From assembly GCF_014930365.1 (NCBI RefSeq), contig NZ_JABXWI010000008.1, positions 248,001 to 312,000 of the forward strand: a DNA stretch of 64,000 bases. The letters run 5' to 3'. Both the position numbers and the translations under genes were made by a program. This document shows, one piece after another, positions 6,466-19,464 of the stretch (positions within the stretch are counted from its first letter, which is position 1; every line of letters begins with the position of its first letter). This DNA is from Streptomyces caniscabiei (GTDB lineage: Bacteria; Actinomycetota; Actinomycetes; Streptomycetales; Streptomycetaceae). The notes below the pieces were generated by a model that had not been told where the DNA came from, ran no database searches, and saw only the letters and a program-made list of their open reading frames with translations.

Positions 6466-6891
6466 ATGACCGGCCCCGCCGACTTCGACCGGCAGGTTCT
6501 CGACGCGGTGGAGAACCTGGTGCCGCTCTGGTTCTCGGCAGTGGAGGAGGTCACCCCGAGACTCTCCCCGAGACAGATACTGGCGCTCCGCGCGGTGCGC
6601 GGCGTACCCGAGCTGAACCTGACCGGTCTGGCGGAGCGGCTCGGGGTCGGTCTGCCCACCGCCAGCCGGCTCTGCGACCGCCTCGAAGCGGCCGAACTGC
6701 TGCAGAGGTGGGCCCGGCTCGACGACCGGCGCGAGGTCCGCCTGGTGGTGACCGAACGCGGACACCGGTACCTCGCGGACGTCACCGAACGCCTGTCGGC
6801 GCGGCTCGGCGACGCCCTGGCGGCCCTGTCACCGGCCGAACGGGCCCGGGTGGAGCAGGTGTTGCGGACCCTGGGGGGAAGCGTCAGTTGA
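6466..6891 (+). CDS. MarR-family transcriptional regulator
   Basis: This 141-residue winged-helix protein has the MarR recognition-helix region GLPTASRLCDRLEAAELLQR followed by the wing DDRREVRLVVTERG. It closely resembles the MarR encoded at 12777-13250, and both share the SRLCDRLEA motif. It overlaps by eight bases, tail to tail, with the SpoIIE phosphatase gene at the end of the stressosome-like operon. There is no room for a ribosome-binding site behind the putative SigB-type promoter, pointing to leaderless translation from ATG 6466. The ligand and targets are unknown. Confidence 0.85.
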   Translation: MTGPADFDRQVLDAVENLVPLWFSAVEEVTPRLSPRQILALRAVRGVPELNLTGLAERLGVGLPTASRLCDRLEAAELLQRWARLDDRREVRLVVTERGHRYLADVTERLSARLGDALAALSPAERARVEQVLRTLGGSVS

Positions 6892-8629
6892 GGTGCGCCG
6901 TGACGCGTCCCGCGGCACTGTGCACATGGCAGAGCAGCAGACAGACGTCGTCCTCGTGCTCCTCGTCCAGCAAAGGGGCGAGCAACTGGTCGGCCGACTC
7001 CTGGAGATCCCCGTCCAGCGTCGTGGACGGGAGCCCGCCGAGCGCCGTGGCCAGTTGTTCGATGCCCGGGTCGATCCCCAGGGCGCGTCTCTCCACCAGC
7101 CCGTCGGTGTAGAGCGCCAGGGTCGAACCGGGCGGCAGCGGCTCGGTGTGGTCGGCGATCTCCTGATGCAGCGGGATGCCGAGCATCGCGCCGGGTTTGG
7201 CGTCCAGGATCCGCACACCCCCGTCGGGCGAGCGCAGCACCGGCGGCGGATGGCCGGCGGCGGCCCAGGTGAGGGTGGGTTCGTGCGGATGGAACCGGGC
7301 GATGACGGCCGTGGCGTACAGGTCGGGCTGCAGATGGTGCAGGAACAGATGGAGATGGGTGAGGAGCTGGCCGGGGGTCTTGCCGTCGACCGCGTACGCG
7401 CGCAGCGCGGTCCGCAGCTGGCTCATCATCACCGCGGCGTGCAGACCGTGTCCGGTGACGTCGCCGATCACGGTGATCAGGCTGCCGTCGGGCTGCCGGA
7501 AGGCGTCGTACCAGTCGCCGCCGATGTTCAGGCCCCGTGTGGCCGGCAGATAGCGCGCGGCCAGCCGCAGCCCCGGCGTGGTGGGCAGCTCGGTGAGCAG
7601 GGCCCGTTGCAGGGTCTCGGCGATGTCGCGGTTGTGCTCGAAACGCCGGGCGTTCTCCAGCGCCACCCCCGCCCGCCGGGCGAGCTCGATCAGCATGAAG
7701 ACGTCGTCGGCGTCCCAGCGCTCGTCGTCGGGCGGCGACAGCGTCAGCACGCCCAGGGGCGCGCCCCGCGTCACCAGGGGCACGCACAGCAGCGGCCGGG
7801 TGGGGTCGAGCGCCGAGGGCGGATGGTCGTCGACCCCGGGCAGCTCACCGGGATGGTCGGCGGCGTACTGCGGCCGCCCGCGGCGAGCCGCGACGACGGC
7901 GGCGGCCGGACGCGGACCGCCACCGGCCACCTCGCCCTCCCCGTCGAACAGCCATACGTCGGCGCTGCGGGCGTACCGGGGCACCAGCAGGGACGGCAGC
8001 AGCCGCACGATCGCGTCCGGGTTGAGCGACGCGGTCAGGGCGGCGCTGGCGTCGGCGAGCAGGGTGAGCCGGCCGCGCGCGTTCTCGGCCTCCTTACGGG
8101 CCTGCTGCTCGGCGGCGAACAGTTCGCGCTGCGCCCGCCCGGCCGCGTCCAGCTCGGCGTGCAGGGCGAGGACGCCCTGGTTGGTCTGGTGCAGTTCCTC
8201 GCGGTGGAAGGCGACCAGCGCCTCCTTCTCGTCGAGCTTCTCCAGCAGCAGCGCCGCGTCCTCGTCCGCTCCGAACAGGGCCTCCGCGAGCGTCGTCGGA
8301 TCACCGGCCACATGCTCGCTGTCCGGCAGCCGTACCTCCTCCGAGCAGGCGACCGTCAGCCGCCACGGCTGCCGGTACTCGCCCGGCCGCCGGTTCGCCG
8401 ACGTCACCTCGACGAGGAACCGGCAGCCACCGGGCCGCGCCGTGACGGCCCGCGCGGTCAGCAGCCACGCGCCGCCCTTGGTCAGACACTGCCGCAGCTG
8501 CGCCGAGAGCACGGACACCAGCCGCGCCCGGTCGGTGGACGACACCCCGTGCGCGGTGGCCAGCCGTGCGGTGGCGATACGCGCCCGGGCGGCGTCGGTG
8601 ACGGAACGGACGGTCCAGGTACGGGTCAT
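6884..8629 (-). CDS. GAF/SpoIIE protein phosphatase (RsbU-like output)
   Basis: The 581-residue protein has four parts. A degenerate RsbT-like N-terminal region (1-115) is followed by a coiled-coil linker with the EELHQTNQGVLALHAELD signature (about 155-175). A GAF domain (about 200-345) precedes a C-terminal SpoIIE/PP2C domain (about 355-575) with intact metal motifs GGDWYDAF, GDVTGHG, LYTDGL and a final acidic EDDV. Such enzymes dephosphorylate anti-anti-sigma factors. It is the last gene of a six-gene operon and overlaps the preceding gene by four bases. The likely substrate is a STAS protein such as that encoded at 13436, but that is inference. Confidence 0.85.
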   Translation of the reverse strand: MTRTWTVRSVTDAARARIATARLATAHGVSSTDRARLVSVLSAQLRQCLTKGGAWLLTARAVTARPGGCRFLVEVTSANRRPGEYRQPWRLTVACSEEVRLPDSEHVAGDPTTLAEALFGADEDAALLLEKLDEKEALVAFHREELHQTNQGVLALHAELDAAGRAQRELFAAEQQARKEAENARGRLTLLADASAALTASLNPDAIVRLLPSLLVPRYARSADVWLFDGEGEVAGGGPRPAAAVVAARRGRPQYAADHPGELPGVDDHPPSALDPTRPLLCVPLVTRGAPLGVLTLSPPDDERWDADDVFMLIELARRAGVALENARRFEHNRDIAETLQRALLTELPTTPGLRLAARYLPATRGLNIGGDWYDAFRQPDGSLITVIGDVTGHGLHAAVMMSQLRTALRAYAVDGKTPGQLLTHLHLFLHHLQPDLYATAVIARFHPHEPTLTWAAAGHPPPVLRSPDGGVRILDAKPGAMLGIPLHQEIADHTEPLPPGSTLALYTDGLVERRALGIDPGIEQLATALGGLPSTTLDGDLQESADQLLAPLLDEEHEDDVCLLLCHVHSAAGRVTAHLN

Positions 8630-9693
8630 GGGAGGCGGTCCGGCGGGGAGGGGCTCAGTACGGCGACGGTGGTGTCGTCGCGGACCGGCCGGGCGGGGCT
8701 GCTCGCGTCGCGCACGATCACGGCGGCGATCACAGCGGGGTCGAGGGAGGGGCTGTGGGCGGCGGGCCCCGGGCTCCAGCGGCTGGGCAGACCGTCGCTG
8801 TGCAGCACGAGCAGACGGTCGTCCCCCCAGTCCGCCTCGTGCTGCGGAAGACGCGCGGCCCGGTGGGCGCCGACTATGCCGGGCCGGGACAGCAACGGCT
8901 GCCAGTCCGCGCCGGTGCGCAGCCTGGCCCCGATGTTGCCGACCCCCGAGAACAGCAACCGGCCGGCGGCGAGGTCGAGTTGGGCGACGGCGACGGCCGC
9001 GCCCCGGGTGTCGCGCAGTGCGCCCTCCAGTCGGCGCAGCAACTGGGCCGGGGGCAGCTCGGGAGCCCGGTACAGCTGCTCCACGGCCGCCGAGGAGGCC
9101 CGGGCCGCCGCCGGGCCGTGGCCCAGCCCGTCCGCCAGCATCAGCGTGATGAGATCGCCCGCCCGTACCCAGGACCAGGCGTCGCCGGAGAACTCCGCGC
9201 CGGCGAAGGGGACGTTGACACCGCCTGCCCGCACGCCCGGGACGGGGGAGGCCGGAGCGGGCCGGCGCACCGGCCGGGAGCCGAGCCGGGCCAGGGCGAT
9301 GGTGCCCCGGCCGACCGTGCTGTGCAGGTCGAAGTCGTCGGCGACCCGGCGGCAGGTGCCGAGGCCCGCGCCGAGCGACGACGTCGTCGAGAAACCGTCG
9401 CGCAGCGCGCCCGCGACGTCGCGCACCCCCGGCCCGTGGTCGATCGCCACGATCTGCACCATCGGGGCCGCACCGTCCGCCCGGTCCGGGTCGGGGCGGG
9501 AGACGACGTCCAGCAGTATCAGCCCGCCGCCGGCGTGCTTGAGCAGATTGGTCGCCAGCTCGGTGGCCACCAGCGCACAGCCCGCGGCACGGCCCGCGTC
9601 CAGCCCGGCCCGCGCCGCGGCCGCCTCGGCGGCCACCCGGGCGTCGCGCACCCGGGTGGAGTCGTGCACCGGCACCTCCCAGACCCGTGGCAT
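8626..9693 (-). CDS. RsbT-like kinase domain fused to RsbX-like phosphatase
   Basis: This 355-residue protein joins an N-terminal GHKL domain to a C-terminal PP2C/SpoIIE domain. The GHKL part has N-box TELATNLLKHAGGG near residue 45, DHGPGV, and the GAGLGTCRRVADDF lid. The PP2C part has LADGLGHGPAAA near residue 188, GVGNIG, LHSDGL and terminal RDDTTV. In Bacillus, RsbX resets the stressosome by dephosphorylating RsbR and RsbS. Here the phosphatase is joined to an RsbT-type module. ATG 9693 overlaps the stop of the rsbT-like gene (TGATG), and its end overlaps the next gene by four bases, so it is tightly coupled within the operon. Confidence 0.85.
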   Translation of the reverse strand: MPRVWEVPVHDSTRVRDARVAAEAAAARAGLDAGRAAGCALVATELATNLLKHAGGGLILLDVVSRPDPDRADGAAPMVQIVAIDHGPGVRDVAGALRDGFSTTSSLGAGLGTCRRVADDFDLHSTVGRGTIALARLGSRPVRRPAPASPVPGVRAGGVNVPFAGAEFSGDAWSWVRAGDLITLMLADGLGHGPAAARASSAAVEQLYRAPELPPAQLLRRLEGALRDTRGAAVAVAQLDLAAGRLLFSGVGNIGARLRTGADWQPLLSRPGIVGAHRAARLPQHEADWGDDRLLVLHSDGLPSRWSPGPAAHSPSLDPAVIAAVIVRDASSPARPVRDDTTVAVLSPSPPDRLP

Positions 9694-10133
9694 CAGCGCT
9701 CCTCGCGGGGGCGCGGGGCGCCCGACAGCCAGGACGTGACCGTCACCGTGGTCCCCGACCCGGCCCGGCTGTCGATCGTGAACTCGTGGACGAGCCGCCG
9801 GGCACCGCCCAGCCCCATCCCCAGCCCCTCGCCGGAGGTGTAGCCGTCGAGGAGGGCCTGGTCGAGGTCGGCGATGCCGGGCCCCTCGTCGCTGAACGTC
9901 AGCCGCAGTCCTCGTGCGCCGCCCCGGTCCACCGGGGCGCACTCCATCTGGCCCCCGCCGCCGTGGACCAGGGTGTTGCGGGCCAGCTCGCTGGCCGCGG
10001 TGACCAGCTTGGTCTGGTCGACCAGACCGAAGCCGAGCTGGGCGGCCGCCTGCCGCACATGCTGACGTACCCACACCAGATCGAGATCCGAGTGGATCGG
10101 CAGGCAGGCGGAGATGCCGCCGGCGGTCTGCAT
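9693..10133 (-). CDS. rsbT: RsbT-like serine/threonine switch kinase
   Basis: The 146-residue product is an RsbT-type GHKL kinase: N-box TAASELARNTLVHGGGG, G1 box FSDEGPGI, and G2/lid SGEGLGMGLGGARRLVHEF. In the known stressosome, RsbT phosphorylates RsbS and RsbR and is then released to activate a phosphatase. It directly follows rsbS and precedes the RsbT/RsbX fusion. ATG 10133 overlaps the rsbS stop as TGATG; the GTG at 10136 is an alternative. AGGAG lies eight bases upstream of the ATG. Gene order R-S-T supports the name. Confidence 0.85.
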   Translation of the reverse strand: MQTAGGISACLPIHSDLDLVWVRQHVRQAAAQLGFGLVDQTKLVTAASELARNTLVHGGGGQMECAPVDRGGARGLRLTFSDEGPGIADLDQALLDGYTSGEGLGMGLGGARRLVHEFTIDSRAGSGTTVTVTSWLSGAPRPREER

Positions 10134-10573
10134 CACGGACTCTCCTGGCGGGCGTGGACGCGGCGGGGGAAGGTCGGGTCCGGTTCGCCGAGGAGGCGCA
10201 GCGCGTCCTCGGTGCTGAGCGCGGTGCGCAGTCCCGGCAGGGTCAGACCGAGCTCCACCAGCGTGATCGCCACGGCCGGACGCATCCCGGCGACGACCGT
10301 CCCGGCGGCGAGCAGGCTCGTCTGGGCGGCGATGTCGCCGAGCACCCGGCCGAGGAAGGAGTCGACCATCTCCACTCCGGAGAGGTCGATCACCACACCC
10401 GTGGCTCCGCTGCGCGCGACCGTGTCGCTGATGTCCTGCTGGAGCTGCTCGGCCGCTCCGTCGTGCAGATCGCCCTGGAGCGACACCAGGAGCACATGGC
10501 CGATCTTGAGCACGGGGACGGGCGCCCCGTACGACGACGGGCCGCCGTGTGCGGCGAAGAGATCGCCGCTCAC
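10133..10573 (-). CDS. rsbS: RsbS-like STAS stressosome protein
   Basis: This 146-residue single STAS-domain protein contains VVIDLSGVEMVDSFLGRVLGDIA, matching the Bacillus RsbS phosphorylation segment (DSF serine, here about Ser72), and GMRPAVAITLVELGLTL, also an RsbS hallmark. RsbS is the scaffold that holds RsbT until phosphorylated. Compared with Bacillus RsbS it carries a short extra N-terminus and a C-terminal tail. GTG 10573 is the start; it overlaps the upstream rsbR stop by four bases, so translation is coupled. Confidence 0.88.
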   Translation of the reverse strand: MSGDLFAAHGGPSSYGAPVPVLKIGHVLLVSLQGDLHDGAAEQLQQDISDTVARSGATGVVIDLSGVEMVDSFLGRVLGDIAAQTSLLAAGTVVAGMRPAVAITLVELGLTLPGLRTALSTEDALRLLGEPDPTFPRRVHARQESP

Positions 10574-11532
10574 CTGTGCCCCGAACCGGCGCCGTCGCGG
10601 GTCACGATGTCCGTGCCCAGCTGCCGGAGCGCGTAGGCCAGGGCGTCCGCGAGGCTCGTGCGGGTCAGCACCGAGCTGAGGTCGATGCCCAGGTGGACGA
10701 TGGTCTGCGCGATCGGTGGCCGGATCCCGGAGACGATGCACTCGGCGCCCATCAGCCGGGCCGCCGCCACGGTCTTCATCAGGTGCTGGGCCACCAGCGA
10801 GTCCACGGTGGGCACCCCGGTGATGTCGAGGATGGCGAACCGGGCGTGCTGTTCGACGATGGAGTCCAGGAGCCGCTCCATCACCACCTGGCTGCGCGCG
10901 CTGTCCAGCGTGCCGATCAGGGGGACGGCGACGATGCCCTCCCACAGCTTGATCACCGGCGTGGCGACCTCCATCAGCTGCAGCCGCTGCCGGTGGATCA
11001 GCTCCTCGCCCTCGTTGAGCGCGGTCTCCAGCACGACCAGGCGCAGGGTGCCCATCAGAACCGTCAGCGTCGTGGTGCACTCGCGCAGATGCACCGCCGG
11101 CGCCGCGGCGAACTCGGCCAGCAGCAGATCGGTCACCGGCGGCCGCAGCGCGTCCACCTCGGCGGAGATCTGGGTGACCGTGGAGCCCGCCCGCGCCCGG
11201 GAGGCGGCCGTCCGCGCCAGCTGCTCCCGGACGACCTGGAAGCCGCCTGCTTCCGCGTCCTCCACGCTGTCCGAGGCGGCCACGGCGGCGAGCGCGTCCA
11301 CCACGGCCCGGCCCGCCTCCACCGCCTCGTCCCGGGAGTGGGTGAAGACGGTGCGGAACAGCGCGGCGTCGGCCCAGCGCTGGGCGATCTGTTCCTGGCG
11401 GTCGCGCAGGAACCGCGCCACCTCCTGCGTCGGTGTCAACTGCCGGTCTGCCGTGTCCTGTTCCGGCACGGATCTCTCCTCACTCGCTGGGGCGCCTCCC
11501 CGCTCCGGGGAACGACTGCTGGGCTGGTTCAT
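10570..11532 (-). CDS. rsbR: RsbR-like stressosome sensor protein
   Basis: The 320-residue product has a variable all-helical N-terminal half (about 1-190) and a C-terminal STAS domain. The linker/STAS start TPVIKLWEGIVAVPLIGTLDS and the RsbR-specific GIRPPIAQTIVHLGIDLSSV are clear. At the position of the Bacillus RsbR phospho-threonine region the sequence is GVPTVDSLVAQH, with serine. RsbR paralogues form the turrets and core of the stressosome and sense input through the N-terminal domain, whose ligand here is unknown. ATG 11532 overlaps the upstream SpoIIE-like gene's stop by four bases. Confidence 0.87.
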   Translation of the reverse strand: MNQPSSRSPERGGAPASEERSVPEQDTADRQLTPTQEVARFLRDRQEQIAQRWADAALFRTVFTHSRDEAVEAGRAVVDALAAVAASDSVEDAEAGGFQVVREQLARTAASRARAGSTVTQISAEVDALRPPVTDLLLAEFAAAPAVHLRECTTTLTVLMGTLRLVVLETALNEGEELIHRQRLQLMEVATPVIKLWEGIVAVPLIGTLDSARSQVVMERLLDSIVEQHARFAILDITGVPTVDSLVAQHLMKTVAAARLMGAECIVSGIRPPIAQTIVHLGIDLSSVLTRTSLADALAYALRQLGTDIVTRDGAGSGHR

Positions 11533-12713
11533 CGGTGCGACCGGTCGGCACCCCCTCGGCCGAACCAGTCGAGACAGACCACGAGCGCGTCGTCGTCCGC
11601 CACGGGGGTGCCGCGGTGACCGGAGAGCTCCCTGAGCACCGCGCCGGGGACATCGGCGGCGGGCAGCAGCCGGGTGGCGTTGACCGCGCGGGCCAGCGCC
11701 CGGTCCCCGTACGCCTCCCCGCCGGGTGTGGCGACGGAGTACACCCCGTCGCTGACGAAGACCAGCCGGTCGCCCGGTTCGAGCCGCAGGCGCTGAGCGG
11801 TGTACTCGGTCTCCTCGAACATGCCCAGCGGAAGCTGTGCCTCCAGTTCGACGGCGCTGACGCTCCCCTCGCGCAGCAGCAGCATCCGGGGCGAGCCCGC
11901 GTCGACGATCTCCAGGTCTCCGGTGACCAGGTCCAGGTCGAGCAGCAGCACCGACAGATGCTGGGCCCCGCCGTACTGGGCGTGCACGGCCTGGTCGGCG
12001 AGGGCGGCCTGCTCGGCGACGGGGACGCCGGCCCGGCGGGCGTTGCGCAGCGCGTTGATCCCCAGCTGGGTCAGCAGGGAGGCCTCGATGCCCTCGCCCA
12101 TGCCGTTGGTGACGTACAGCATCAGGTGGTCGGCGTCGGAGGACCAGTCGAAGTTGTCGCCGAAGATGGCATAGGCGGGCTCCAGTTGGCCGCCGAGCGC
12201 GTACTCGGCCCGGGTGGAGGAGCGGCCCGGCAGCAGCTGCCACTGCATCTCCGCCGCCAGGGTCAGCCGGCTGGAGCGGCGCGCCCGGAGGTACACGTCG
12301 GTGTCCCGCTCCGCGACGATCAGCTCGTGTCCCAGTACCTGGGCGAGCTCGGTCAGTTCGGCGAGGCATTCCTCGGCCTGTGCGGCGGACGGCAGCGTCA
12401 GCCGCAGCACGCCCAGCCGGTCACCGCGCACGGTGACCGGCAGATGGAGCCCCACCCGGTCGTCAGCGCGTTTCTCCACGTACGGCTCCTGCGCCCCGAA
12501 CGCCCGGCCGGCCGGGCCGTCGTGCATGGGCAGGGAGTCCGGCGGGTCCGGACGCGCGGAGGCCGGCCGGAGCACGGTGAGCGAGTAGTCGGCCAGGTAG
12601 AGCTCGACGTCCCGGGCCGACCAGTCGTCGGCCAGTACGTCGCTCAGAGCGTCCACCAGGTGGTGCGGAGCAGCGGAGCGAAGGGCTCGTTCGGCTGCCA
12701 CGAATCTGTTCAC
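11529..12713 (-). CDS. SpoIIE/PP2C-like protein with altered metal site
   Basis: This 394-residue protein starts the stressosome-like operon. A GAF-like N-terminal half is followed by a SpoIIE-type domain from about residue 165. The first motif is FGDNFDW and the later VSDGVYS and DDDALVV motifs are present. The motif normally reading DG(M/V)GxG is TNGMGEG (near residue 203), so one metal-binding aspartate is asparagine. From memory this variant recurs in a Streptomyces subfamily, so the loss may be functional rather than decay. The start is uncertain; GTG 12713 fits best but no clear ribosome-binding site is seen. It is divergent from a marR gene. Confidence 0.75.
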   Translation of the reverse strand: MNRFVAAERALRSAAPHHLVDALSDVLADDWSARDVELYLADYSLTVLRPASARPDPPDSLPMHDGPAGRAFGAQEPYVEKRADDRVGLHLPVTVRGDRLGVLRLTLPSAAQAEECLAELTELAQVLGHELIVAERDTDVYLRARRSSRLTLAAEMQWQLLPGRSSTRAEYALGGQLEPAYAIFGDNFDWSSDADHLMLYVTNGMGEGIEASLLTQLGINALRNARRAGVPVAEQAALADQAVHAQYGGAQHLSVLLLDLDLVTGDLEIVDAGSPRMLLLREGSVSAVELEAQLPLGMFEETEYTAQRLRLEPGDRLVFVSDGVYSVATPGGEAYGDRALARAVNATRLLPAADVPGAVLRELSGHRGTPVADDDALVVCLDWFGRGGADRSHR

Positions 12714-12776: not shown

Positions 12777-13250
12777 GTGACTTCCTCCTCCAACCCGCGG
12801 CCGGACGAGGTGGCGCGTGTGACCTCCGAGGCGGCAGAGCTGCTGGAGGTCGTGTGGGGACGCGCCTCGACGGCACCGGTGTCCGCCTCCCAGCTCCGTG
12901 TGCTGTTCATCCTGGAGCACAACGACGGGATCAACCTGCGGATGCTCGCCGACGCCCTCGGCTCCACACCGCCCTCCACCAGCCGGCTCTGCGACCGGCT
13001 GGAGGCGGTGGGCTTCGTCGAGCGCCACGCCAGCGCGGCCAGCAGGCGCGAGCTGTGTCTGCGGCTGAGCCGGCGCGGGCGGTCGTACCTCGTGGACCTG
13101 CGTGCCCGACGCGAACGCGCCCTGCGGTCCGTGCTGGAGCAGATGCCGGCCGCGAAACGGACCGCGCTGGTGGAAGGGCTGGAGGCGTTCTGCGACGCCG
13201 CGGCGGCGCAGATCCACGGGGGCGACGCCACCGACGTGCGGAGCGCCTGA
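12777..13250 (+). CDS. MarR-family transcriptional regulator, paralogue
   Basis: The 157-residue winged-helix protein carries TPPSTSRLCDRLEAVGFVERHAS followed by a wing and the long C-terminal helix of MarR proteins. It resembles the MarR at 6466-6891 and the two bracket the rsb operon. It is transcribed divergently from that operon with only 63 bases between the starts, so it may control both directions. GTG 12777 is the start; GGAAGAG lies upstream. No ligand can be predicted. Confidence 0.85.
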   Translation: MTSSSNPRPDEVARVTSEAAELLEVVWGRASTAPVSASQLRVLFILEHNDGINLRMLADALGSTPPSTSRLCDRLEAVGFVERHASAASRRELCLRLSRRGRSYLVDLRARRERALRSVLEQMPAAKRTALVEGLEAFCDAAAAQIHGGDATDVRSA

Positions 13251-13435: not shown

Positions 13436-13840
13436 CTATTCCTGCGTGGGCGGTTCGTCCGGAAGCGGGGCGACCTGCCCGGAGTCCACGGCGGCCAGCG
13501 CCTCGTCCACGCTGTCCACCGTGGTCACGGTGAGGCTCACGCCGGTGAGGTCGAGTATCCGTCGTACGGCCGGAGCCGGGGCGATCACATACACACCGCC
13601 CGGAATCTTCCGGACCTCCTGATAGGTCCGCAGGATGATGTTCATGCCGGACGAGTCCATGAAGGGAACGGCCGACACGTCCAGCAGGAAATGCCGTCGG
13701 CCGTGCCGCAGTTGGTTCGCCAGATGATGCTGCAGCTCGGTCGCCGTGTCGATGTCCAGTTCCCCTTCGATCGTGAGCAGCACGGCGTCGGCCCGGGGCA
13801 GATCGACCTTGATCGACAGGGGGTTGTGGGCAACGGACAC
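13436..13840 (-). CDS. STAS-domain anti-anti-sigma factor (RsbV-like)
   Basis: The 134-residue product is a single STAS domain with LTIEGELDIDTATELQHHL and the phosphorylation segment VPFMDSSGMNIILRTY. RsbV/SpoIIAA-type proteins bind and sequester an anti-sigma kinase when their DSSG serine is unphosphorylated. GTG 13840 is chosen because GGAGG lies seven bases upstream; the in-frame ATG at 13852 has no such site. It lies downstream of a sigma-factor gene on the same strand and also has its own SigB-type promoter at 13924-13948. SpoIIE-type phosphatases encoded nearby are plausible activators. Confidence 0.88.
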   Translation of the reverse strand: MSVAHNPLSIKVDLPRADAVLLTIEGELDIDTATELQHHLANQLRHGRRHFLLDVSAVPFMDSSGMNIILRTYQEVRKIPGGVYVIAPAPAVRRILDLTGVSLTVTTVDSVDEALAAVDSGQVAPLPDEPPTQE

Positions 13841-13923
13841 GAGAGCCTCCATGGGGGGTGCCGACCGGGGCGGGTGCCCCGGTTCACGAGTTCGACGCAT
13901 CGCCCGGCGACGCGCCCGTGCGC

Positions 13924-13948
13924 ATACCCGCGAATCGCGCGGGCACAC
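13924..13948 (-). promoter_or_regulatory. SigB-type promoter of the anti-anti-sigma gene
   Basis: On the minus strand GTGT (13948-13945) and GGGTAT (13929-13924) are 15 bases apart, matching GNNT-N14-16-GGGTAC/T. The site lies between the sigma gene stop (13958) and the STAS start (13840), leaving an untranslated leader of roughly 77 bases. It has the same layout as the promoters at 6432-6456 and 20643-20667. Confidence 0.6.
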
Positions 13949-13957
13949 GGGCCCCGA

Positions 13958-14833
13958 TCAGGCGACTCCGGGTTCCAGCAGGCCCGCCCGCAGCCGCTTG
14001 ATGATGCGGCTGATCAGCCGTGACACATGCATCTGGGACACCCCGAGCTGCTCGGCGATCTGCGACTGGGTCTGTTCCTCCACGAACCGCAGATGCAGGA
14101 TCCGCCGCTCACGGTCGTCGAGTTCGGCGATCAGCGGCGCCAGCGAGTGGAAGTCCTCCACGAGTTGCATCGCGTGGTCCTCCTCGCCGATGAGGTCGCC
14201 GAGCACGGTGTCGCCGTCCTCGCCGCTGTCGGAGGTGAGCGCCGCGTCGAGCGAGGAGGTGTTGTAGCCGTTGGACGCCTTGCGCGCCTCGATGACCTCC
14301 TCCTCGGACAGCGACATCAGTTCCGACAGCTCACGTGTCGTCGGCATCCGGCCCAGCCGGGACTGCAACTCGTCCGTCGCCCGGGCCAGCTCCACCCGCG
14401 CCTCCTGCAACCGCCGCGGCACATGCACCGCCCAGCTGGTGTCCCGGAAGAACCGCTTGATCTCGCCGACGATGTACGGCACGGCGAACGTGGTGAACTC
14501 CACCTCCCGGGACAGCTCGAACCGGTCGATGGCCTTGATCAGCCCGATGGTCCCCACCTGGACGATGTCCTCCAGGGAGTCCTCGCGCCCGCGGAAGCGG
14601 GAGGCGGCGTACCGCACCAGCGAGAGATTCATCTCGATGAGCGTGTTGCGTACGTACTGATAGGTGTGGGTGCCCTCGTCCAACATGGCCAGCCGGTCGA
14701 AGAACTGCCGGGACATCTCCCGGGCATCCTTGGGCCTCACCTGTGACGGGTCCTCGATCAGGGGCAGGTCCACCCCGTCCGTCATGACCCTCCCCCGTGC
14801 CGTGGCCGTTGTACCTGCCGTCACGGCTGCCAT
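13958..14833 (-). CDS. SigB/SigF/SigG-family RNA polymerase sigma factor
   Basis: This 291-residue sigma factor has region 2 (LVRYAASRFRGREDSLEDIVQVGTIGLIKAIDRFE and TTFAVPYIVGEIKRFFRDTSW), region 3 (ELARATDELQSRLGRMPTTRELSELMSL) and region 4 (SQIAEQLGVSQMHVSRLISR). The family controls general stress and late development in Streptomyces. The start at ATG 14833 follows GGGGTGGA; an upstream ATG at 14869 would add 12 residues. It is immediately upstream of a STAS gene, and divergent from a second sigma-factor gene. Confidence 0.9.
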   Translation of the reverse strand: MAAVTAGTTATARGRVMTDGVDLPLIEDPSQVRPKDAREMSRQFFDRLAMLDEGTHTYQYVRNTLIEMNLSLVRYAASRFRGREDSLEDIVQVGTIGLIKAIDRFELSREVEFTTFAVPYIVGEIKRFFRDTSWAVHVPRRLQEARVELARATDELQSRLGRMPTTRELSELMSLSEEEVIEARKASNGYNTSSLDAALTSDSGEDGDTVLGDLIGEEDHAMQLVEDFHSLAPLIAELDDRERRILHLRFVEEQTQSQIAEQLGVSQMHVSRLISRIIKRLRAGLLEPGVA

Positions 14834-15166
14834 GCTGTCCACCCCTCTCGCCCGAAGCCTTGTTGCCATCCCACGCTTGCCCCGCGAACGCGAAGTCAGT
14901 CCCCCTGATTCGGGAAAGGGACCGTGTCGCTCCCCACTCTGGCCGGAAGTCGTCGCCGTCCCGGGTGACGCGGATCACGGAGCTGGCGATCCGTCACGGG
15001 GAATGCGCGCACGGTTGTTTGCCTCCCGGGTCGCGGGGCAATCGGAGTTCCACGCCTCCGTGCAGGAGGCACCTAGGCGGAAGCGGTGTTCCGCGCAAGG
15101 GCCCCGGTCGCCCGCCACCGTTTCCCGCCACAAGTCCCTGAAAGCGTCGTTCAGGAGCGATTTCCC
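14834..15166. other. Divergent intergenic region between two sigma-factor genes
   Basis: The 333-bp gap must hold promoters for both sigma genes. I find no good GTGT-N15-GGGTA match on either strand and no convincing -35/-10 pair. The only clear signal is the AGGAG ribosome-binding site at 15152-15156 for the downstream sigma gene. No open reading frame with plausible start and content is seen. Confidence 0.4.
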
Positions 15167-16006
15167 ATGCTGGTCAATGTGTCCGCAAACGGTTCAGGCA
15201 CCTCCGTCCGTCCCGGTACCCCCGACAGGAGGACGCACGACGACGCCCCCGACACCGCCACCGACTTCGCCCGCCTCGCGGCGATGGACGCGGGACCCGA
15301 ACGCGACCACGTCCGCGACGAACTCGTCCGGGCCTGGCTGCCCATGGCGCACCGCATCGCCGGCCGCTTCCGCAACCGCGGCGAGTCGCTGGAGGATCTG
15401 CGCCAGGTCGCCGCGATGGGCCTGGTCAAGGCGGTGGACCGCTACGAGCCCGAACGGGGGGCGTTCGAGAGCTACGCCGTGCCCACCATCACCGGAGAGA
15501 TCAAGAGGCACTTCCGCGACCGGATGTGGACGCTGCGCGTACCCCGGCGGGTGCAGGACCTCCGCAACAAGGTGCGTGTGGCGCGGCGCGAACTCAGCCA
15601 GACCTCCGGAGGCGCCACCGAGCCCTCCGTCGCCGACATCGCCGCCCTCGCGGGCCTCACGGAAGAAGAGGTCCACGCCGGGATGGAGGCGCTCGACAGC
15701 TTCAGCGCGCTCTCCCTGGACGCCGAGATGGCCTCGGGCGACGACGGCTACAGCCTCGCCGACACCCTCGGCGCCCCCGACGCGGCCTACGACACCGTCG
15801 TGGACCGCGAGTCGGTCAAGGAAGGGCTGCGGCGTCTGCCCGAACGCGAGCGGGCCATCCTCTACATGCGCTTCTTCGAGGACATGACCCAGAACCGCAT
15901 CGCCGACCGCCTCGGCATCTCCCAGATGCATGTCTCCCGCCTCATCAGCCGCAGCTGCGCGCGCGTCCGCGAAGAGGCCCTCGGCCGCACCACCCCCTCC
16001 GTCTGA
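15167..16006 (+). CDS. SigB-family RNA polymerase sigma factor
   Basis: The 279-residue product is a second stress-type sigma factor with region 2 (HRIAGRFRNRGESLEDLRQVAAMGLVKAVDRYE), region 3 and a region 4 helix-turn-helix (QNRIADRLGISQMHVSRLISR). It shares the family with the minus-strand sigma factor but differs clearly in sequence, so it is a paralogue rather than a recent copy. ATG 15167 is preceded by AGGAG at ten bases. It heads a likely operon with DUF5133 (16030) and an RsbW-like kinase (16375), which may be its anti-sigma factor. Confidence 0.9.
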   Translation: MLVNVSANGSGTSVRPGTPDRRTHDDAPDTATDFARLAAMDAGPERDHVRDELVRAWLPMAHRIAGRFRNRGESLEDLRQVAAMGLVKAVDRYEPERGAFESYAVPTITGEIKRHFRDRMWTLRVPRRVQDLRNKVRVARRELSQTSGGATEPSVADIAALAGLTEEEVHAGMEALDSFSALSLDAEMASGDDGYSLADTLGAPDAAYDTVVDRESVKEGLRRLPERERAILYMRFFEDMTQNRIADRLGISQMHVSRLISRSCARVREEALGRTTPSV

Positions 16007-16374: not shown

Positions 16375-16842
16375 ATGACATCGATGGAACGCCAGCCGCT
16401 CGTGCACCACGACACCGCTCCCGCGGACGGGCCCGCCGCCCGGCCGCCGGGACCGCCGGTCGCCATCACCAACGCCGCGGCGGCCCGCCGTCACGTGCGG
16501 GCGTTCGTGGGGGAGCGGTGGCGTTCTCCGGCCGGGCCCCCGACCGAGCAGTCGATGATCGATCTCATTCTCGTCGTCTCCGAACTGGTCACCAACGCGG
16601 TCCGGCACGGGGGCGGCCTCGCCGGGTTCGACGTCGCCCTCACTCCCGAGGGCGTGCGCCTCGCCGTGCGCGACCACAGCGCCGCCGTGCCCGTGGGACT
16701 CCACGGGCCCGGAGCGCTGCCCCGCGCCCACGAGGGCAACGGCTACGGATGGCCGCTGATCAACCGGCTCTCCAGCAAGGTCGACGTCGTGCGCCGCGCG
16801 TCCGGCGGCAAGACCATCAGCGTCTTGGTGCCGCTGGCCTGA
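16375..16842 (+). CDS. ATP-binding protein, RsbW-like anti-sigma kinase
   Basis: The 155-residue product is a GHKL protein with N-box ILVVSELVTNAVRHGGG, an atypical G1 region VRDHSAAVP and G2 GNGYGWPLINRLSSKVDVV. This is the common Streptomyces HATPase_c_2 family, some of which act as anti-sigma kinases. The first 30 residues are proline/alanine-rich. Position after a sigma-factor gene suggests it restrains that sigma factor, but this is inference. ATG 16375 overlaps no neighbour; an alternative start is ATG 16384. Confidence 0.82.
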   Translation: MTSMERQPLVHHDTAPADGPAARPPGPPVAITNAAAARRHVRAFVGERWRSPAGPPTEQSMIDLILVVSELVTNAVRHGGGLAGFDVALTPEGVRLAVRDHSAAVPVGLHGPGALPRAHEGNGYGWPLINRLSSKVDVVRRASGGKTISVLVPLA

Positions 16843-16894: not shown

Positions 16895-17329
16895 TCACCA
16901 GGGCAGGAAGACGTGGACGTCCTTGCCGTGGTCGTGCACCACCACGCTCACCTCTTCGCACAGCGTCTGGATCAGATACCAGCCGATACCGCCGCCGCCC
17001 TTGCTGGGATGGAAGGGGCGCGGCGCGGGCGACGTCGTGCTCGTGTCCCCCAGCGTCACATGCACCCCGTCCAGGGTGCGGCGCATCGTCAGCTCGAACC
17101 GTCCGGGGGCGTACTGCACCGCGTTGGCGGCCAGTTCCGTGACCACCAGCAGGATGTCGTCCCAGTGCTCGACAGCGGCCGGCGGCGAGGTGCGGGAGAG
17201 GACGCCCAGGAACCCCTCCGCGGCCGTACGCGCCCCCGTCACGTCGCCGAGTTCTCCGTCGAAGGCGGCGTGGCTGTCGTAAATCTCCTCGGCAGGCAGT
17301 TTGTCGTCCCTACGTGGCTCTGTTGACAT
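16895..17329 (-). CDS. ATP-binding protein, RsbW-like anti-sigma kinase
   Basis: A 144-residue GHKL protein with N-box ILLVVTELAANAVQYAPG, a poorly conserved G1 region (LGDTSTTSP) and G2 GGGGIGWYLIQTLCEEV. The N-terminal 30 residues precede the fold. It is convergent with the kinase at 16375 (53 bases between ends), and lies downstream of the PAS/GAF/SpoIIE phosphatase on the same strand with a 164-base gap. A kinase and a phosphatase in one transcription direction would fit a second partner-switching unit. Confidence 0.8.
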   Translation of the reverse strand: MSTEPRRDDKLPAEEIYDSHAAFDGELGDVTGARTAAEGFLGVLSRTSPPAAVEHWDDILLVVTELAANAVQYAPGRFELTMRRTLDGVHVTLGDTSTTSPAPRPFHPSKGGGGIGWYLIQTLCEEVSVVVHDHGKDVHVFLPW

Positions 17330-17493: not shown

Positions 17494-19221
17494 CTACCGT
17501 TCACCCGCCTCACCGTCCTCGGCGGGCGTGCGGAAGACCAGCAGGGCGACGTCGTCGTCGTTGTCGACGGGACGGGCCCGCTCCAGCAGCAGGTCGCAGA
17601 ACACGTGCAGGGGCCGGTGGGCGAGGGCCGCCGCGTGCTGGCGCAGCCGGGCCAGACCCCGGTCGAGGGTGTGCCCCGGGGACTCGATCAGACCGTCCGT
17701 GTACAGCACCAGCGTCGACTGCGGCGGCAGCGGGGTGAGCGTGTCCGTACGGGCCCGGATCAGCCCCGTGCCGAGCAGGTGGTCGTGCTCCTCGTCCAGG
17801 AAGCGGGACCTGCCGTCGTGGGTGATCAGCAGCGGCGGCGGATGCCCCGCGTTGGTCCACCGCAGGGCCCAGGTGTCCTCGCCGCGCTCGACCCGGCCGA
17901 AGATCAGCGTCGCCATGGACGCCTCGGTCACGTTCACCACGGCCCGGTCCAGCCGCTCCGCGATCGCGCTCGGCGGCTCCTCCAGCGCCCAGGCGTAGGC
18001 CCGGAGCATGTTGCGGACCTGCGCCATCCCGGCCGCGGCGTCGATGTTGTGTCCGACGACGTCGCCGATGGCCACCGCCGTGGCCCCGTCGGCGAGCGTG
18101 AACGCGTCGTACCAGTCGCCGCCGACCTGCGAGGACTTCGACGCCGACTCGTAGCGCGCGGCCATCCGCAGCCCCGGCACCTCCGGCATCTGGGGCAGCA
18201 GGTGGCGCTGCATGGTCTCCGCGATGTGCCGCTGCCGCTGGTACAGGCGCGCGTTCTCCAGCGCCAGCCCGGCCCGGCGGGCGATGTCGTCCAGCAGGGA
18301 CAGCTCGGCCTCGGTGAAGGCCCCCGGACGCTCGCTCAGGCCCAGCGTGAGGGCGCCGAGCACAGCGCGCGGCCCCCGGATGGGCGCGATGGCCGCCGAG
18401 CGCAGCCCCGCCTCCTTGAACAGCCTCTGCTGGGCGACCGTGATCCCCGAGTCCGCCGGCCCCTGGTAGGTCTCCGGCCCGGCCAGGGTCGAGGCCGCCC
18501 CGCGCAGCGCCCGGGACAGCGGCATCAGCGACTCCTCGTGCACCGGCGGGAGCGGACCCTCCAACTCCTCGCGCCGCACCACCACGCCGTCGCGGTGGGT
18601 CGCCACCGTGGTCCGCCAGACGTCGTCGCTCTCGGTGATCAGGTCCACGATCGCCCAGTCCGCGAGCCGTGGCACCACCAGCCGCACCAGCCGGGCGACC
18701 GCCTCCTCGGCGTCCAGGGTGGAGCTCAGCCGGGTCGTCGTCTCGGCGAGCAGCGCCAGCCGGTCCAACTGCGACAGCGCCGGCGTCCCGCTGTCCGGGA
18801 CGGCCACGGTCTCAGGGGCGCACTCGTGGAAGAGCACCACCGCGCCGGTCGCCGTCCCGTCGAGCCGGCACGGGGTGACCAGCCAGCTCACCGGCAGCAG
18901 TGTGCCGTCGCCGCGCAGGAACCACTCCCGGTCCCCGCCGCCCGTGCGGCCGCTGAGGAACACGCTCATCATCGCGCACGCCGCCCGTGGCACGGAGTGC
19001 CCGAGCTGGTCCCGGTGCAGCAGCTCGTGGGCGTCCTGCCCGAGGAGTCCGTCCGCCGGGCGGCCGAGCAGCTCGGCGGCCCGGGGATTCACCGCGACGA
19101 CCAGGCCGTTGTCGTCCACCACGTACATACCGGCGTGCACGAGATCGGGCAGCCCGTCCGGAAGACGCACCGCCCGGCCAGGCGACCGCCGTTCGGTGTG
19201 ATCCGGACTCCACGCGCTCAT
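17494..19221 (-). CDS. PAS/GAF/SpoIIE protein phosphatase
   Basis: The 575-residue protein has an N-terminal PAS domain (about residues 25-135, YVVDDNGLVVAVNPRAAELLG), a GAF domain (about 175-330), and a SpoIIE/PP2C domain (about 345-570) with GGDWYDAF, GDVVGHN, LYTDGL and NDDDVALLV. It should dephosphorylate a STAS anti-anti-sigma factor in response to a PAS or GAF ligand. ATG 19221 follows GGAGGA; the frame is open further upstream but content there is poor. A weak SigB-like GCGT-N15-GGGTAA lies at about 19302-19326 on the same strand. Confidence 0.87.
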   Translation of the reverse strand: MSAWSPDHTERRSPGRAVRLPDGLPDLVHAGMYVVDDNGLVVAVNPRAAELLGRPADGLLGQDAHELLHRDQLGHSVPRAACAMMSVFLSGRTGGGDREWFLRGDGTLLPVSWLVTPCRLDGTATGAVVLFHECAPETVAVPDSGTPALSQLDRLALLAETTTRLSSTLDAEEAVARLVRLVVPRLADWAIVDLITESDDVWRTTVATHRDGVVVRREELEGPLPPVHEESLMPLSRALRGAASTLAGPETYQGPADSGITVAQQRLFKEAGLRSAAIAPIRGPRAVLGALTLGLSERPGAFTEAELSLLDDIARRAGLALENARLYQRQRHIAETMQRHLLPQMPEVPGLRMAARYESASKSSQVGGDWYDAFTLADGATAVAIGDVVGHNIDAAAGMAQVRNMLRAYAWALEEPPSAIAERLDRAVVNVTEASMATLIFGRVERGEDTWALRWTNAGHPPPLLITHDGRSRFLDEEHDHLLGTGLIRARTDTLTPLPPQSTLVLYTDGLIESPGHTLDRGLARLRQHAAALAHRPLHVFCDLLLERARPVDNDDDVALLVFRTPAEDGEAGER

Positions 19222-19464
19222 GTTCGGGTTCCTCCGGCTCCGGTGGCGGACAGGACGGTCGTCGATGTCGACGGACCGCTCCGCCGCGTGTGCTGCACGC
19301 ATTACCCCGTCCCCGACGACCTACGCGCACGATGTCCCCGACCGCAGGTGGGAGCGGGTGCCCGTGCCCCGGGCGCCGTCCGCGCGCGATGCACGGACGG
19401 CGACGCCCCGGACACGCTTCGCCCGCGGCGCGCCCGGGCGTCGCGGGCGGGACGGCCTCCGGGG

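Follow-up and report, generated by a model that had tools for sequence, protein, structure and literature searches.

A six-gene operon in the soil actinomycete Streptomyces caniscabiei appears to encode a stressosome whose output phosphatase begins with a shortened relative of the switch kinase RsbT. What is new here is this output, with an RsbT-like domain in place of RsbU_N; the RsbRST stressosome itself is already known. We propose that the domain is an alternative output adaptor of the stressosome, and we lean slightly towards a reading in which it plugs the output enzyme in, instead of RsbU_N, and has freed RsbT as its partner. The stretch of DNA analysed, hereafter the window, comprises 64,000 nucleotides of contig NZ_JABXWI010000008.1.

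A stressosome module in a conserved operon

The operon consists of six minus-strand genes, A to F, running from 12713 to 6884 and adjoining by 1- or 4-base overlaps (ORF list and Pfam). The overlaps are 4 bases for A/B (ATGA), B/C (GTGA), C/D and E/F, and 1 base for D/E; that of C/D becomes 1 base instead of 4 if gene D starts at the ATG at 10133. All six ORFs lie where the initial annotation had placed them. A B. subtilis-type sigB operon (RSTUVW-sigB-X) was not matched, in that rsbU, rsbV, rsbW, sigB and rsbX do not follow rsbRST in one operon, and GTTT-N13-17-GGGTA, which we take to be the SigB-type promoter consensus, has no match within the window. The arrangement is not a chance one, because 86 of the 150 genomes searched from the genus, this one included, have an RsbS match, and the B-C-D-E order is kept in 40 loci fetched with long flanks and chosen for having RsbS. 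Since the operon is so common in the genus, and partly published for S. coelicolor (the SCO7324 operon), the stressosome is not new in itself, and the initial annotation needs correcting in that the operon is nothing unusual within the genus.

Judged from the genes alone, B, C and D are an RsbRST (stressosome) module in the Bacillus order, as initially annotated: best PDB matches, phosphosite positions, kinase motifs and tree all lead to this assignment, and Pfam agrees. Gene B (10570..11532) is RsbR, an RsbRD_N sensor domain followed by STAS, with stressosome RsbR chains as its best PDB matches and the only RsbRD_N domain that a profile search found in the genome. It has Ser245 and Thr277 at two aligned Ser/Thr positions that we take to be the phosphosites. 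The first is Ser or Thr in 30/30 extracted RsbR and the second is Thr in 26, Ser in 2 and Ile in 1 (29 shown), RsbR having been extractable from 29 of the 40 loci for the motif comparison. Gene C (10133..10573) is RsbS, a single STAS domain by Pfam, best matched by the RsbS chains 6jhk (E 1e-27) and 6qcm (E 5e-27), with Ser72 in a conserved VDSF motif of which D71 and S72 are invariant in 18/18 aligned sequences. Gene D (9693..10136; Pfam HATPase_c) is the GHKL switch kinase RsbT, with N-box, G1 and G2 motifs all intact and a place in the RsbT group of the tree at support 98/100.

Gene E (8626..9693; Pfam HATPase_c_2 and SpoIIE) joins an ATPase domain, related to RsbT by hhalign and the tree, to an RsbX-like PP2C domain, which bears out the fusion first noted there. 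Motifs of both halves are intact (two E extractions, L054 and L055, are wrong at the start in the motif comparison), and the PP2C half is a predicted phosphatase of the RsbX feedback type. The locus thereby holds an RsbR with sensor, STAS domain and two Ser/Thr sites, an RsbS with its phospho-Ser, an RsbT with its motifs and an RsbX-type PP2C.

Gene A (11529..12713; Pfam SpoIIE) is a GAF and SpoIIE/PP2C-like protein, with GAF at residues 1-140 and PP2C at 161-384 by structure model and fold comparison; some of the PP2C domain is poorly modelled (mean pLDDT 70). The metal-binding Asp of its DGMG motif is replaced by Asn203 (NGMG), and Asn stands at this position in 13 of 17 aligned homologues. 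By a match read by eye, this is the column of SpoIIE D628, the Asp of the DG motif that binds metal M2 (PMC5468089). Lacking that Asp, gene A is probably not an active phosphatase, and we regard it as probably a non-catalytic relative, a pseudophosphatase or regulator. Of the two additional SpoIIE-type genes initially counted, then, F has a SpoIIE-type PP2C domain and A is probably inactive.

Upstream of the operon lie the parts of a partner-switching pathway. A MarR regulator (12777..13250, plus strand; Pfam) is divergent from gene A and paired with it, as it is in relatives. Next comes an RsbV-like anti-sigma antagonist, the predicted likely substrate of F (13436..13948 as listed, minus strand, with a true start that may be further in; Pfam STAS, TIGR00377 above cut-off), followed by two SigB/F/G-family sigma factors at 13958..14869 (minus strand, TIGR02980 297 bits) and 15086..16006 (plus strand, 276 bits), both above the NCBIfam cut-off, which 7 such factors pass in the genome. 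The sigma factors and the RsbV-like protein are as initially annotated. Two of three claimed RsbW-like kinases stand, at 16375..16842 (plus strand) and 16895..17329 (minus strand, near the operon in several relatives too), both by Pfam HATPase_c_2 and the tree; the third is a 13-bit trace at 442-747. The claim that RsbV lies outside the operon depends on lineage: here the divergent marR and gene A stand between rsbV and rsbR, whereas 10 of 23 close loci have rsbV immediately in front of rsbR, in the order V-R-S-T-E-F.

The output phosphatase begins with an RsbT relative

Gene F (6884..8629; Pfam GAF and SpoIIE) has the catalytic SpoIIE-type PP2C domain of an RsbU-like output by domain, motifs and fold comparison. 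RsbU_N (PF08673), through which B. subtilis RsbU recruits RsbT, is absent from F and from the whole genome in a search that detected the B. subtilis positive control. The initial annotation was therefore right that the operon has no RsbU as such, except that F most likely fills the RsbU role through a different, RsbT-related N-terminal domain. By structure model and profile comparisons, F residues 1-100 (8330..8629) are a degenerate RsbT-like domain, which we call pRsbT, without the N-box Asn and without G1 and G2. It is followed at residues 111-200 (8030..8299) by one long predicted helix, a coiled coil with the EELHQTNQGVLALHAEL motif. On this evidence the first 100 or so residues of F are a shortened, motif-less RsbT relative and not a kinase.

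Residues 1-115 of F alone match no Pfam family. The model gives residues 1-95 the order strand-helix-helix-strand-strand-strand, with block pLDDT of 68-88, and the helix at 111-200 a pLDDT of about 90 over most of its length; the stretch 8030-8266 has one match in the genome at E <= 0.01. Because a fold comparison of the whole F model returned matches to the C-terminal half only (residues 298-581), the N-terminal fold is supported by a single model together with the profiles.

The kinship to RsbT holds for F-type N-termini as a set, above shuffled controls. Against the RsbT profile, class-1 N-termini (22 rows, the window's F included) score 33.5, with 18.2 as the best of 200 shuffled decoys, and class-2 N-termini (14 rows) score 51.2, with 19.2 as the best of 200. 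Profiles of STAS, MarR, PP2C and RsbW, the last of two rows only, reach at most 1.2% probability, so that RsbW is a weaker candidate relative than RsbT. The ATPase domain of E is also weaker, its profile reaching 14% with class 1, 6% with class 2 and 34% with both combined. Output N-termini from other phyla score 52.7 against RsbT (best of 100 decoys 17.4), 38.1 against the Streptomyces output set (decoys at most 9.5) and 0.2% against RsbU_N. Class 1 alone is weak against this set (15%); its kinship to the other phyla runs through class 2 and RsbT.

The same picture comes from HMM searches of 5564 ORFs. An HMM built from non-Streptomyces output N-termini matches 46 output N-termini and 41 RsbT, plus a single ATPase of another kind and one ORF without a label; one built from Streptomyces outputs matches 41 output N-termini and 43 RsbT, with one additional output fragment and three ATPases of other kinds; and an all-output HMM gives the window's own RsbT 41.5 bits. 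A regular-expression search found none of the three ATPase motifs in 75 of 82 output N-termini, and all three in 62 of 67 RsbT. With its own clade removed from the HMM, the window's F has E = 0.054, not significant as a single sequence. In this leave-out test 29 of the 82 outputs remain above 0.01, namely 12/15 from Vibrio/Aeromonas (at 3/15 the weakest multi-member clade), 10/24 of Streptomyces class 1, 5/17 of class 2, 1/4 from Zetaproteobacteria, and L109. Two unrelated or misread ORFs (L110, L113) were excluded from the other-phyla and leave-out comparisons.

Exchange of RsbU_N across stressosome loci

Among loci with the RsbX fusion, 54 of 60 have the RsbT-like domain at the start of the protein that follows RsbX, as do 39 of 41 non-actinobacterial loci in our sample, and RsbU_N is found in none of these 60 or 41. 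In other Actinomycetota, without the fusion, RsbU_N is present in 13 of 16 outputs and the RsbT-like domain in none. The effector behind related N-termini varies, being a PP2C phosphatase, a histidine kinase or a GGDEF diguanylate cyclase. At the level of sequence, RsbU_N has been exchanged for the RsbT-like domain, with a swap of effector behind it.

The tally covers 129 loci, and its output counts omit 11 in which no RsbX was recognised and 1 that had no gene downstream; the 54 are 48 in the tally plus 6 Streptomyces loci counted by hand, where the automatic pick was in the wrong frame and the outputs were read separately (L048, L052, L053, L056, L165, L169). Because its adaptor and RsbU_N HMMs had many of these proteins in their training sets, the tally is descriptive only; the tests proper are the profile, HMM and leave-out comparisons above and the RsbU_N scan below. 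Genomes G009, G026 and G124 contribute two loci each, same-genus loci are not independent, and the other-phyla sample, drawn with one RsbR query, is no census. In fusion-free Actinomycetota, a separate scan of ten outputs, selected by eye among the 16 read, found RsbU_N in all ten, nine of them scoring over the curated cut-off and L151 slightly under it; outside the scan were L136, L137 and L144, with RsbU_N in the tally, and L141, L143 and L152, with neither domain. RsbU_N is absent from 16 class-2 outputs at E 0.01 and is not among 25 of the 36 families listed for 33 outputs. A strict ETN coil motif, a regular expression from Streptomyces, has no match in 48 loci of other phyla; the coil motif is thus not general, and only the RsbT-like domain is.

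Proposed mechanism and alternatives

In the mechanism that we slightly favour, RsbR and RsbS would form a scaffold holding RsbT, and stress sensed by RsbRD_N would lead RsbT to phosphorylate RsbS Ser72 and RsbR. Freed RsbT, or an RsbT-family kinase, could then engage F at its degenerate RsbT-like domain and the coiled coil next to it, stiffening the coil and switching on the PP2C domain. F might in turn dephosphorylate the neighbouring RsbV, which would release at least one SigB-family sigma factor from an RsbW-type kinase, while the RsbX half of E would reset RsbS and RsbR. We infer every binding, phosphorylation and activation step, as well as the choice of RsbT, and not RsbS or RsbR, as the adaptor's partner.

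Kinship to RsbT would fit either docking partner, RsbS/RsbR or RsbT. The RsbT-like domain might be a decoy, holding F directly on the STAS domains of RsbS and RsbR until RsbT phosphorylates their sites, whereupon F is freed or its coil re-set; RsbT would then be a gatekeeper kinase and not the signal carrier. In favour of this, RsbT itself sits on RsbS/RsbR within the complex, the dead domain retains the strand and helices of the N-terminus without the ATP site, and Heinz et al. saw no binding between VvRsbT and VvD1 (PMC9237108). However, their two-hybrid assay likewise failed to detect RsbT pairing with either RsbS or RsbR alone and was thus blind to RsbT-RsbS too (PMC9237108), and free RsbT does bind RsbU, the output studied in most detail (PMC12143880). 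We consider a decoy unlikely, while taking it seriously.

It is more improbable still that this is an ordinary Streptomyces stressosome operon of the known kind, in which RsbT acts on a phosphatase from another locus, with F and A as unrelated PP2C passengers and the N-terminus of F as no more than a generic dimerisation domain. A SCO7324-type operon and the RsbV SCO7325 are indeed already published (PMC7244524, PMC8346170), and S. coelicolor alone has 44 RsbU/RsbP-type PP2C homologues (PMC8346170). But the genome is without any RsbU_N, F overlaps E by 4 bases and directly follows E in 23/23 class-1 loci, and F-type N-termini are RsbT-like, with such domains recurring after RsbX in other phyla. 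We give very little credence to a locus with no stressosome at all, where R, S and T are a small partner-switching set and fusion E the real switch: E does combine an RsbT-related ATPase and a PP2C, both intact, in a single polypeptide, and RsbX fusion and ETN coil occur together in our locus sample, yet RsbR and RsbS match stressosome subunits better than any other PDB STAS protein.

Returning to the adaptor, we find it tempting to speculate, tentatively and as something that we would not yet bet on, that pRsbT is a general output adaptor of stressosomes without RsbU_N in Actinomycetota, Proteobacteria, Bacteroidetes, Cyanobacteria, Nitrospirota/Nitrospinaceae and Firmicutes. RsbT-family kinases would bind this dead copy of themselves and its coil, and so switch the enzyme fused to it, whether phosphatase, histidine kinase or diguanylate cyclase; in loci of the Streptomyces type, the RsbX-fused RsbT-related ATPase would have co-evolved with the ETN coil and act on it directly. 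The similar RsbT-like part that caps the final protein of comparable clusters in several further phyla may supply the connection that is missing between sensor and output. A shared, recognisable adaptor would make outputs nameable in genomes, and the stressosome-output link outside Bacillales a question testable by binding and phosphatase assays. If true, a signalling kinase has been copied, killed and reused as a docking part, which fits the exchangeable-toolkit idea of Baral et al. 2025 (PMC12143880). No published account of an RsbT-like output adaptor was found in the open-access literature, chiefly its titles and abstract openings.

Comparison with known systems

Among the closest described systems is that of S. 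coelicolor, where a five-gene operon headed by SCO7324 is RsbR/RsbS-related (PMC7244524) and the RsbV SCO7325 helps activate SigB (PMC8346170). Together they fit the V-R-S-T-E-F order of the 10 relatives; the window differs in having marR and gene A between rsbV and rsbR. A gene-by-gene match of the window's operon to SCO numbers is presumed.

With the RsbRSTX modules of B. subtilis, L. monocytogenes and V. vulnificus the window shares RsbR, RsbS, RsbT, an RsbX-type phosphatase, phosphosite positions and kinase motifs, and with V. vulnificus also the R-S-T-X gene order (PMC9237108). Unlike theirs, its RsbX is fused to an RsbT-related ATPase, and its output has a degenerate RsbT-like domain and no RsbU_N. 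The RsbU_N-output modules of other Actinomycetota (L130, L132-L137, L140, L142, L144, L148, L150, L151, L153) likewise run RST-X and then an output protein, but their RsbX is unfused and their RsbU_N sits on PP2C, histidine-kinase, HD or other partners.

In Vibrio, the D1-type hybrid histidine kinases after rsbRSTX have an N-terminal domain in the same profile family as that of F, with a hybrid histidine kinase as effector; V. vulnificus itself is absent from the records fetched for this comparison. For V. brasiliensis the partner of RsbT was called unknown (PMC4976288), and Heinz et al. 2022 describe most downstream proteins as lacking RsbU_N and the route of RsbT signalling to them as not demonstrated (PMC9237108). 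B. subtilis RsbU resembles F, both being the PP2C output of an RST module with N-terminal adaptor, helical linker and PP2C. RsbT binds the N-terminal domain and linker of RsbU and stiffens the linker (PMC12143880), whereas F has an RsbT-like domain in place of RsbU_N, an extra GAF and a longer coil.

Results

The operon and its stressosome module

The six minus-strand reading frames (12713-6884) overlap their neighbours by 1 or 4 bases and lie in a window with a G+C content of 69.5-74.4% per 4-kb block, in a genome of 10.9 Mb. Reading frames and Pfam domains bear out the initial annotation of six overlapping genes and their products on all main points: gene A (11529-12713, minus strand) carries SpoIIE, B (RsbR) RsbRD_N and STAS, C (RsbS) STAS, D (RsbT) HATPase_c, E HATPase_c_2 and SpoIIE, and F GAF and SpoIIE. 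Of the claimed neighbours, the RsbV-like protein, both sigma factors (SigB/F/G family) and two of the RsbW-like ATPases are indeed close by; the third RsbW-like kinase comes down to a 13-bit trace. A PAS-GAF-PP2C protein (17494-19302, minus strand), which adjoins the RsbW-like genes and has an 87%-identical relative at the same place in locus L040, is a further phosphatase of this neighbourhood.

Comparison of B, C and D with stressosome proteins upholds their assignment. The best PDB chains for RsbS are those of stressosome RsbS (6jhk, E = 1.3e-27; 6qcm, 4.9e-27; SpoIIAA, 3e-4), the STAS part of RsbR matches stressosome RsbR chains in a PDB search (7o0i, E = 8e-30; 9o4r, 4e-29), and D, which has the N-box, G1 and G2 boxes, falls inside one 35-sequence RsbT group apart from RsbW-like proteins (support 98/100), in a tree with a long-branch warning for the RsbW rows, where this group spans Actinomycetota, Proteobacteria and one Nitrospirota MAG. 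All 18 aligned RsbS sequences keep Asp71 and Ser72 of the VDSF motif. B. subtilis work points to two phosphosite positions in RsbR: the first holds Ser or Thr in 30/30 extracted sequences, and the second, in the 29 listed, Thr (26), Ser (2) or Ile (1). In the same tree, E's ATPase half sits on the RsbT side of the split from RsbW (100/98) but as one or two lineages of its own, so the label 'RsbT/RsbX fusion' is fair if taken to mean RsbT-related.

The order R-S-T-E is kept in 40 long loci of the genus. Three second copies (L161, L162, L163), from genomes that hold another RST operon besides (G026, G124, G009), have R-S-T-E followed by an opposite-strand marR, with no F recognised after E.

The output carries a degenerate relative of RsbT

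F is the natural output of the module, because the genes E and F overlap by 4 bases and F stands directly after E in 23/23 of the closer, class-1 loci (L040-L062). All 24 F sequences, the window's among them, retain the Asp residues of the four PP2C motifs. In B. subtilis, according to PMC12143880, RsbT works on RsbU via RsbU_N and a linker; RsbU_N has no match across the window's genome, with a positive B. subtilis control.

Residues 1-115 of F have no Pfam match. The structure model of F (mean pLDDT 84, pTM 0.55) has a strand (2-7), two helices (10-26, 31-51) and three strands (55-64, 68-77, 89-95), followed by a single helix (111-200), here called the ETN coil. A GHKL ATPase such as SpoIIAB would be expected to begin with elements in this order, and the resemblance gains support from profile comparison, which links these N-termini to RsbT: class 1 (22 rows) scores 33.5 and the more distant class 2 (14 rows from L063-L079) 51.2, against 18.2 and 19.2 for the best of 200 column-shuffled decoys and 17.8 and 10.8 for reversed profiles. 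Probabilities against STAS, MarR, PP2C and RsbW profiles are at most 1.2%, and the combined Streptomyces profile gives 96% for RsbT versus 34% for the E ATPase. By regular expression, N-box, G1 and G2 are all absent in 75/82 output N-termini and all present in 62/67 RsbT. Given this kinship and the loss of the ATPase motifs, the domain is, on sequence grounds, a dead relative of RsbT.

A proposed shared adaptor with exchangeable effectors

The effector behind this N-terminus is exchangeable. Among 16 class-2 proteins after E, 9 have SpoIIE, 6 a histidine-kinase ATPase domain and 1 (L066) is unrelated; histidine kinases with the RsbT-like N-terminus and coil occur in L063, L064, L068, L069 and L157, as well as in L134, L138 and L139, which represent two further families of the class. 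The outputs of L070 and L074 are HisKA_3-type PAS histidine kinases without the RsbT-like domain; the coil is retained in L074, with a similar stretch in L070, and both are possible intermediates. In Actinomycetota with unfused RsbX, RsbU_N was found in 10/10 outputs scanned (16 read), 9 above the curated cut-off, with PP2C, histidine-kinase, HD or GAF-protein effectors. One such locus, L148, has three RsbR-type STAS matches before RsbS and RsbT and an HD-domain output with RsbU_N.

Outside the actinomycetes, 48 loci from one RsbR query gave 43 readable downstream reading frames. With 2 unrelated or misread frames set aside, the remaining 41 outputs begin with an N-terminal stretch of ~110 residues that looks broadly alike. 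Their effectors are hybrid histidine kinases in Vibrio, Iodobacter, Acetobacterium and others, PP2C in cyanobacteria and Bacteroidetes, and GGDEF in Zetaproteobacteria. Compared with RsbT, the profile of these N-termini (31 non-redundant) scores 52.7, where the highest of 100 decoys reached 17.4; with the combined Streptomyces set it scores 38.1, decoys reaching no more than 9.5. Its match to class 1 by itself has a probability of only 15%, and that to RsbU_N 0.2%. When each of 16 clades was omitted in turn (search space 5564 ORFs), HMMs recovered 53/82 outputs at E < 0.01, from 15/16 clades. Missed were L109 and 10/24 class-1, 5/17 class-2, 1/4 zetaproteobacterial and 12/15 Vibrio/Aeromonas outputs, 29 in all; the window's F (0.054) is one of them. 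Four of the class-2 rows (L066, L070, L073 and L074) lack the adaptor or have it cut. The non-Streptomyces output HMM matched 46 output N-termini, 41 RsbT, 1 other ATPase and 1 unlabelled ORF, apparently a shortened output.

We tallied 129 loci, with output counts dropping 11 without recognised RsbX and 1 without a downstream gene, and 6 Streptomyces outputs counted by hand. With fused RsbX (60 loci), 54 outputs have the RsbT-like domain and ETN coil, none RsbU_N, and 6 neither adaptor (one of these the coil alone). With unfused RsbX, 13 of 16 loci from other Actinomycetota have RsbU_N, none the RsbT-like domain and 3 neither; of 41 from other phyla, 39 have the RsbT-like domain, none RsbU_N and 2 neither. 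Within this sample the two adaptors are mutually exclusive.

Gene A and its marR neighbour

The divergent pair of marR (12777-13250, plus strand) and gene A is found not only ahead of rsbR but also away from the rsbR operon, and so looks like a separate cassette set between rsbV and the module. Among the 23 class-1 loci, rsbV is directly upstream of rsbR in 10, the pair stands between them, as in the window, in 9, the pair occurs without a detected rsbV in 3, and 1 has neither; relatives outside the operon are found in L073 (opposite strand), L075 (a second copy), L078 and L079. A second MarR gene (6466-6891, plus strand) is convergent to F with an 8-base overlap, and a relative stands after F in most A-containing class-1 loci. 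The model of A comprises GAF (1-140) and PP2C (161-384) domains. Among 17 aligned homologues, the Asp of its DG motif is Asn in 13, Asp in another 3 and Gly in the last; of the 13 homologues that come from beside rsbR, 10 have Asn. The SpoIIE counterpart, D628, is a predicted metal M2 ligand (PMC5468089). Judging by its sequence, gene A probably lacks phosphatase activity.

Discussion

The sequence comparisons establish kinship between domains, and every interaction described here is inferred. By analogy with RsbT-RsbU, the RsbT-like domain and coil may form a docking site that would give the stressosome control of F; F would then dephosphorylate RsbV, and a SigB-family sigma factor would thereby be freed from its RsbW-type kinase. 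RsbT would, by the same analogy, be the likeliest docking partner, with RsbS/RsbR as a serious rival. Heinz et al. did not detect VvRsbT-VvD1 binding, a missing signal tempered by the fact that the assay was likewise blind to RsbT with RsbS or RsbR singly. The ETN coil is found solely with fused RsbX in our sample, and a 79-residue coil stretch of F has a single match in the window's genome, which hints at a link between the ATPase half of E and the coil, although common descent could also produce this pattern.

In searches of a library of open-access papers, we found no report in print of a degenerate RsbT-like domain on outputs without RsbU_N. The stressosome operon as such is not new. RsbS matches occur in 86/150 same-genus genomes, our own included (E <= 1e-10), and in 39/396 genomes and 18/245 genera of the phylum sample (E <= 1e-14). 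A five-gene S. coelicolor operon headed by SCO7324 has been described as RsbR/RsbS-related (PMC7244524), the RsbV SCO7325 is named as a SigB regulator (PMC8346170, PMC9739823, PMC11472566), and RST modules are also on record in mycobacteria (PMC8115616). The window's operon thus varies an established type.
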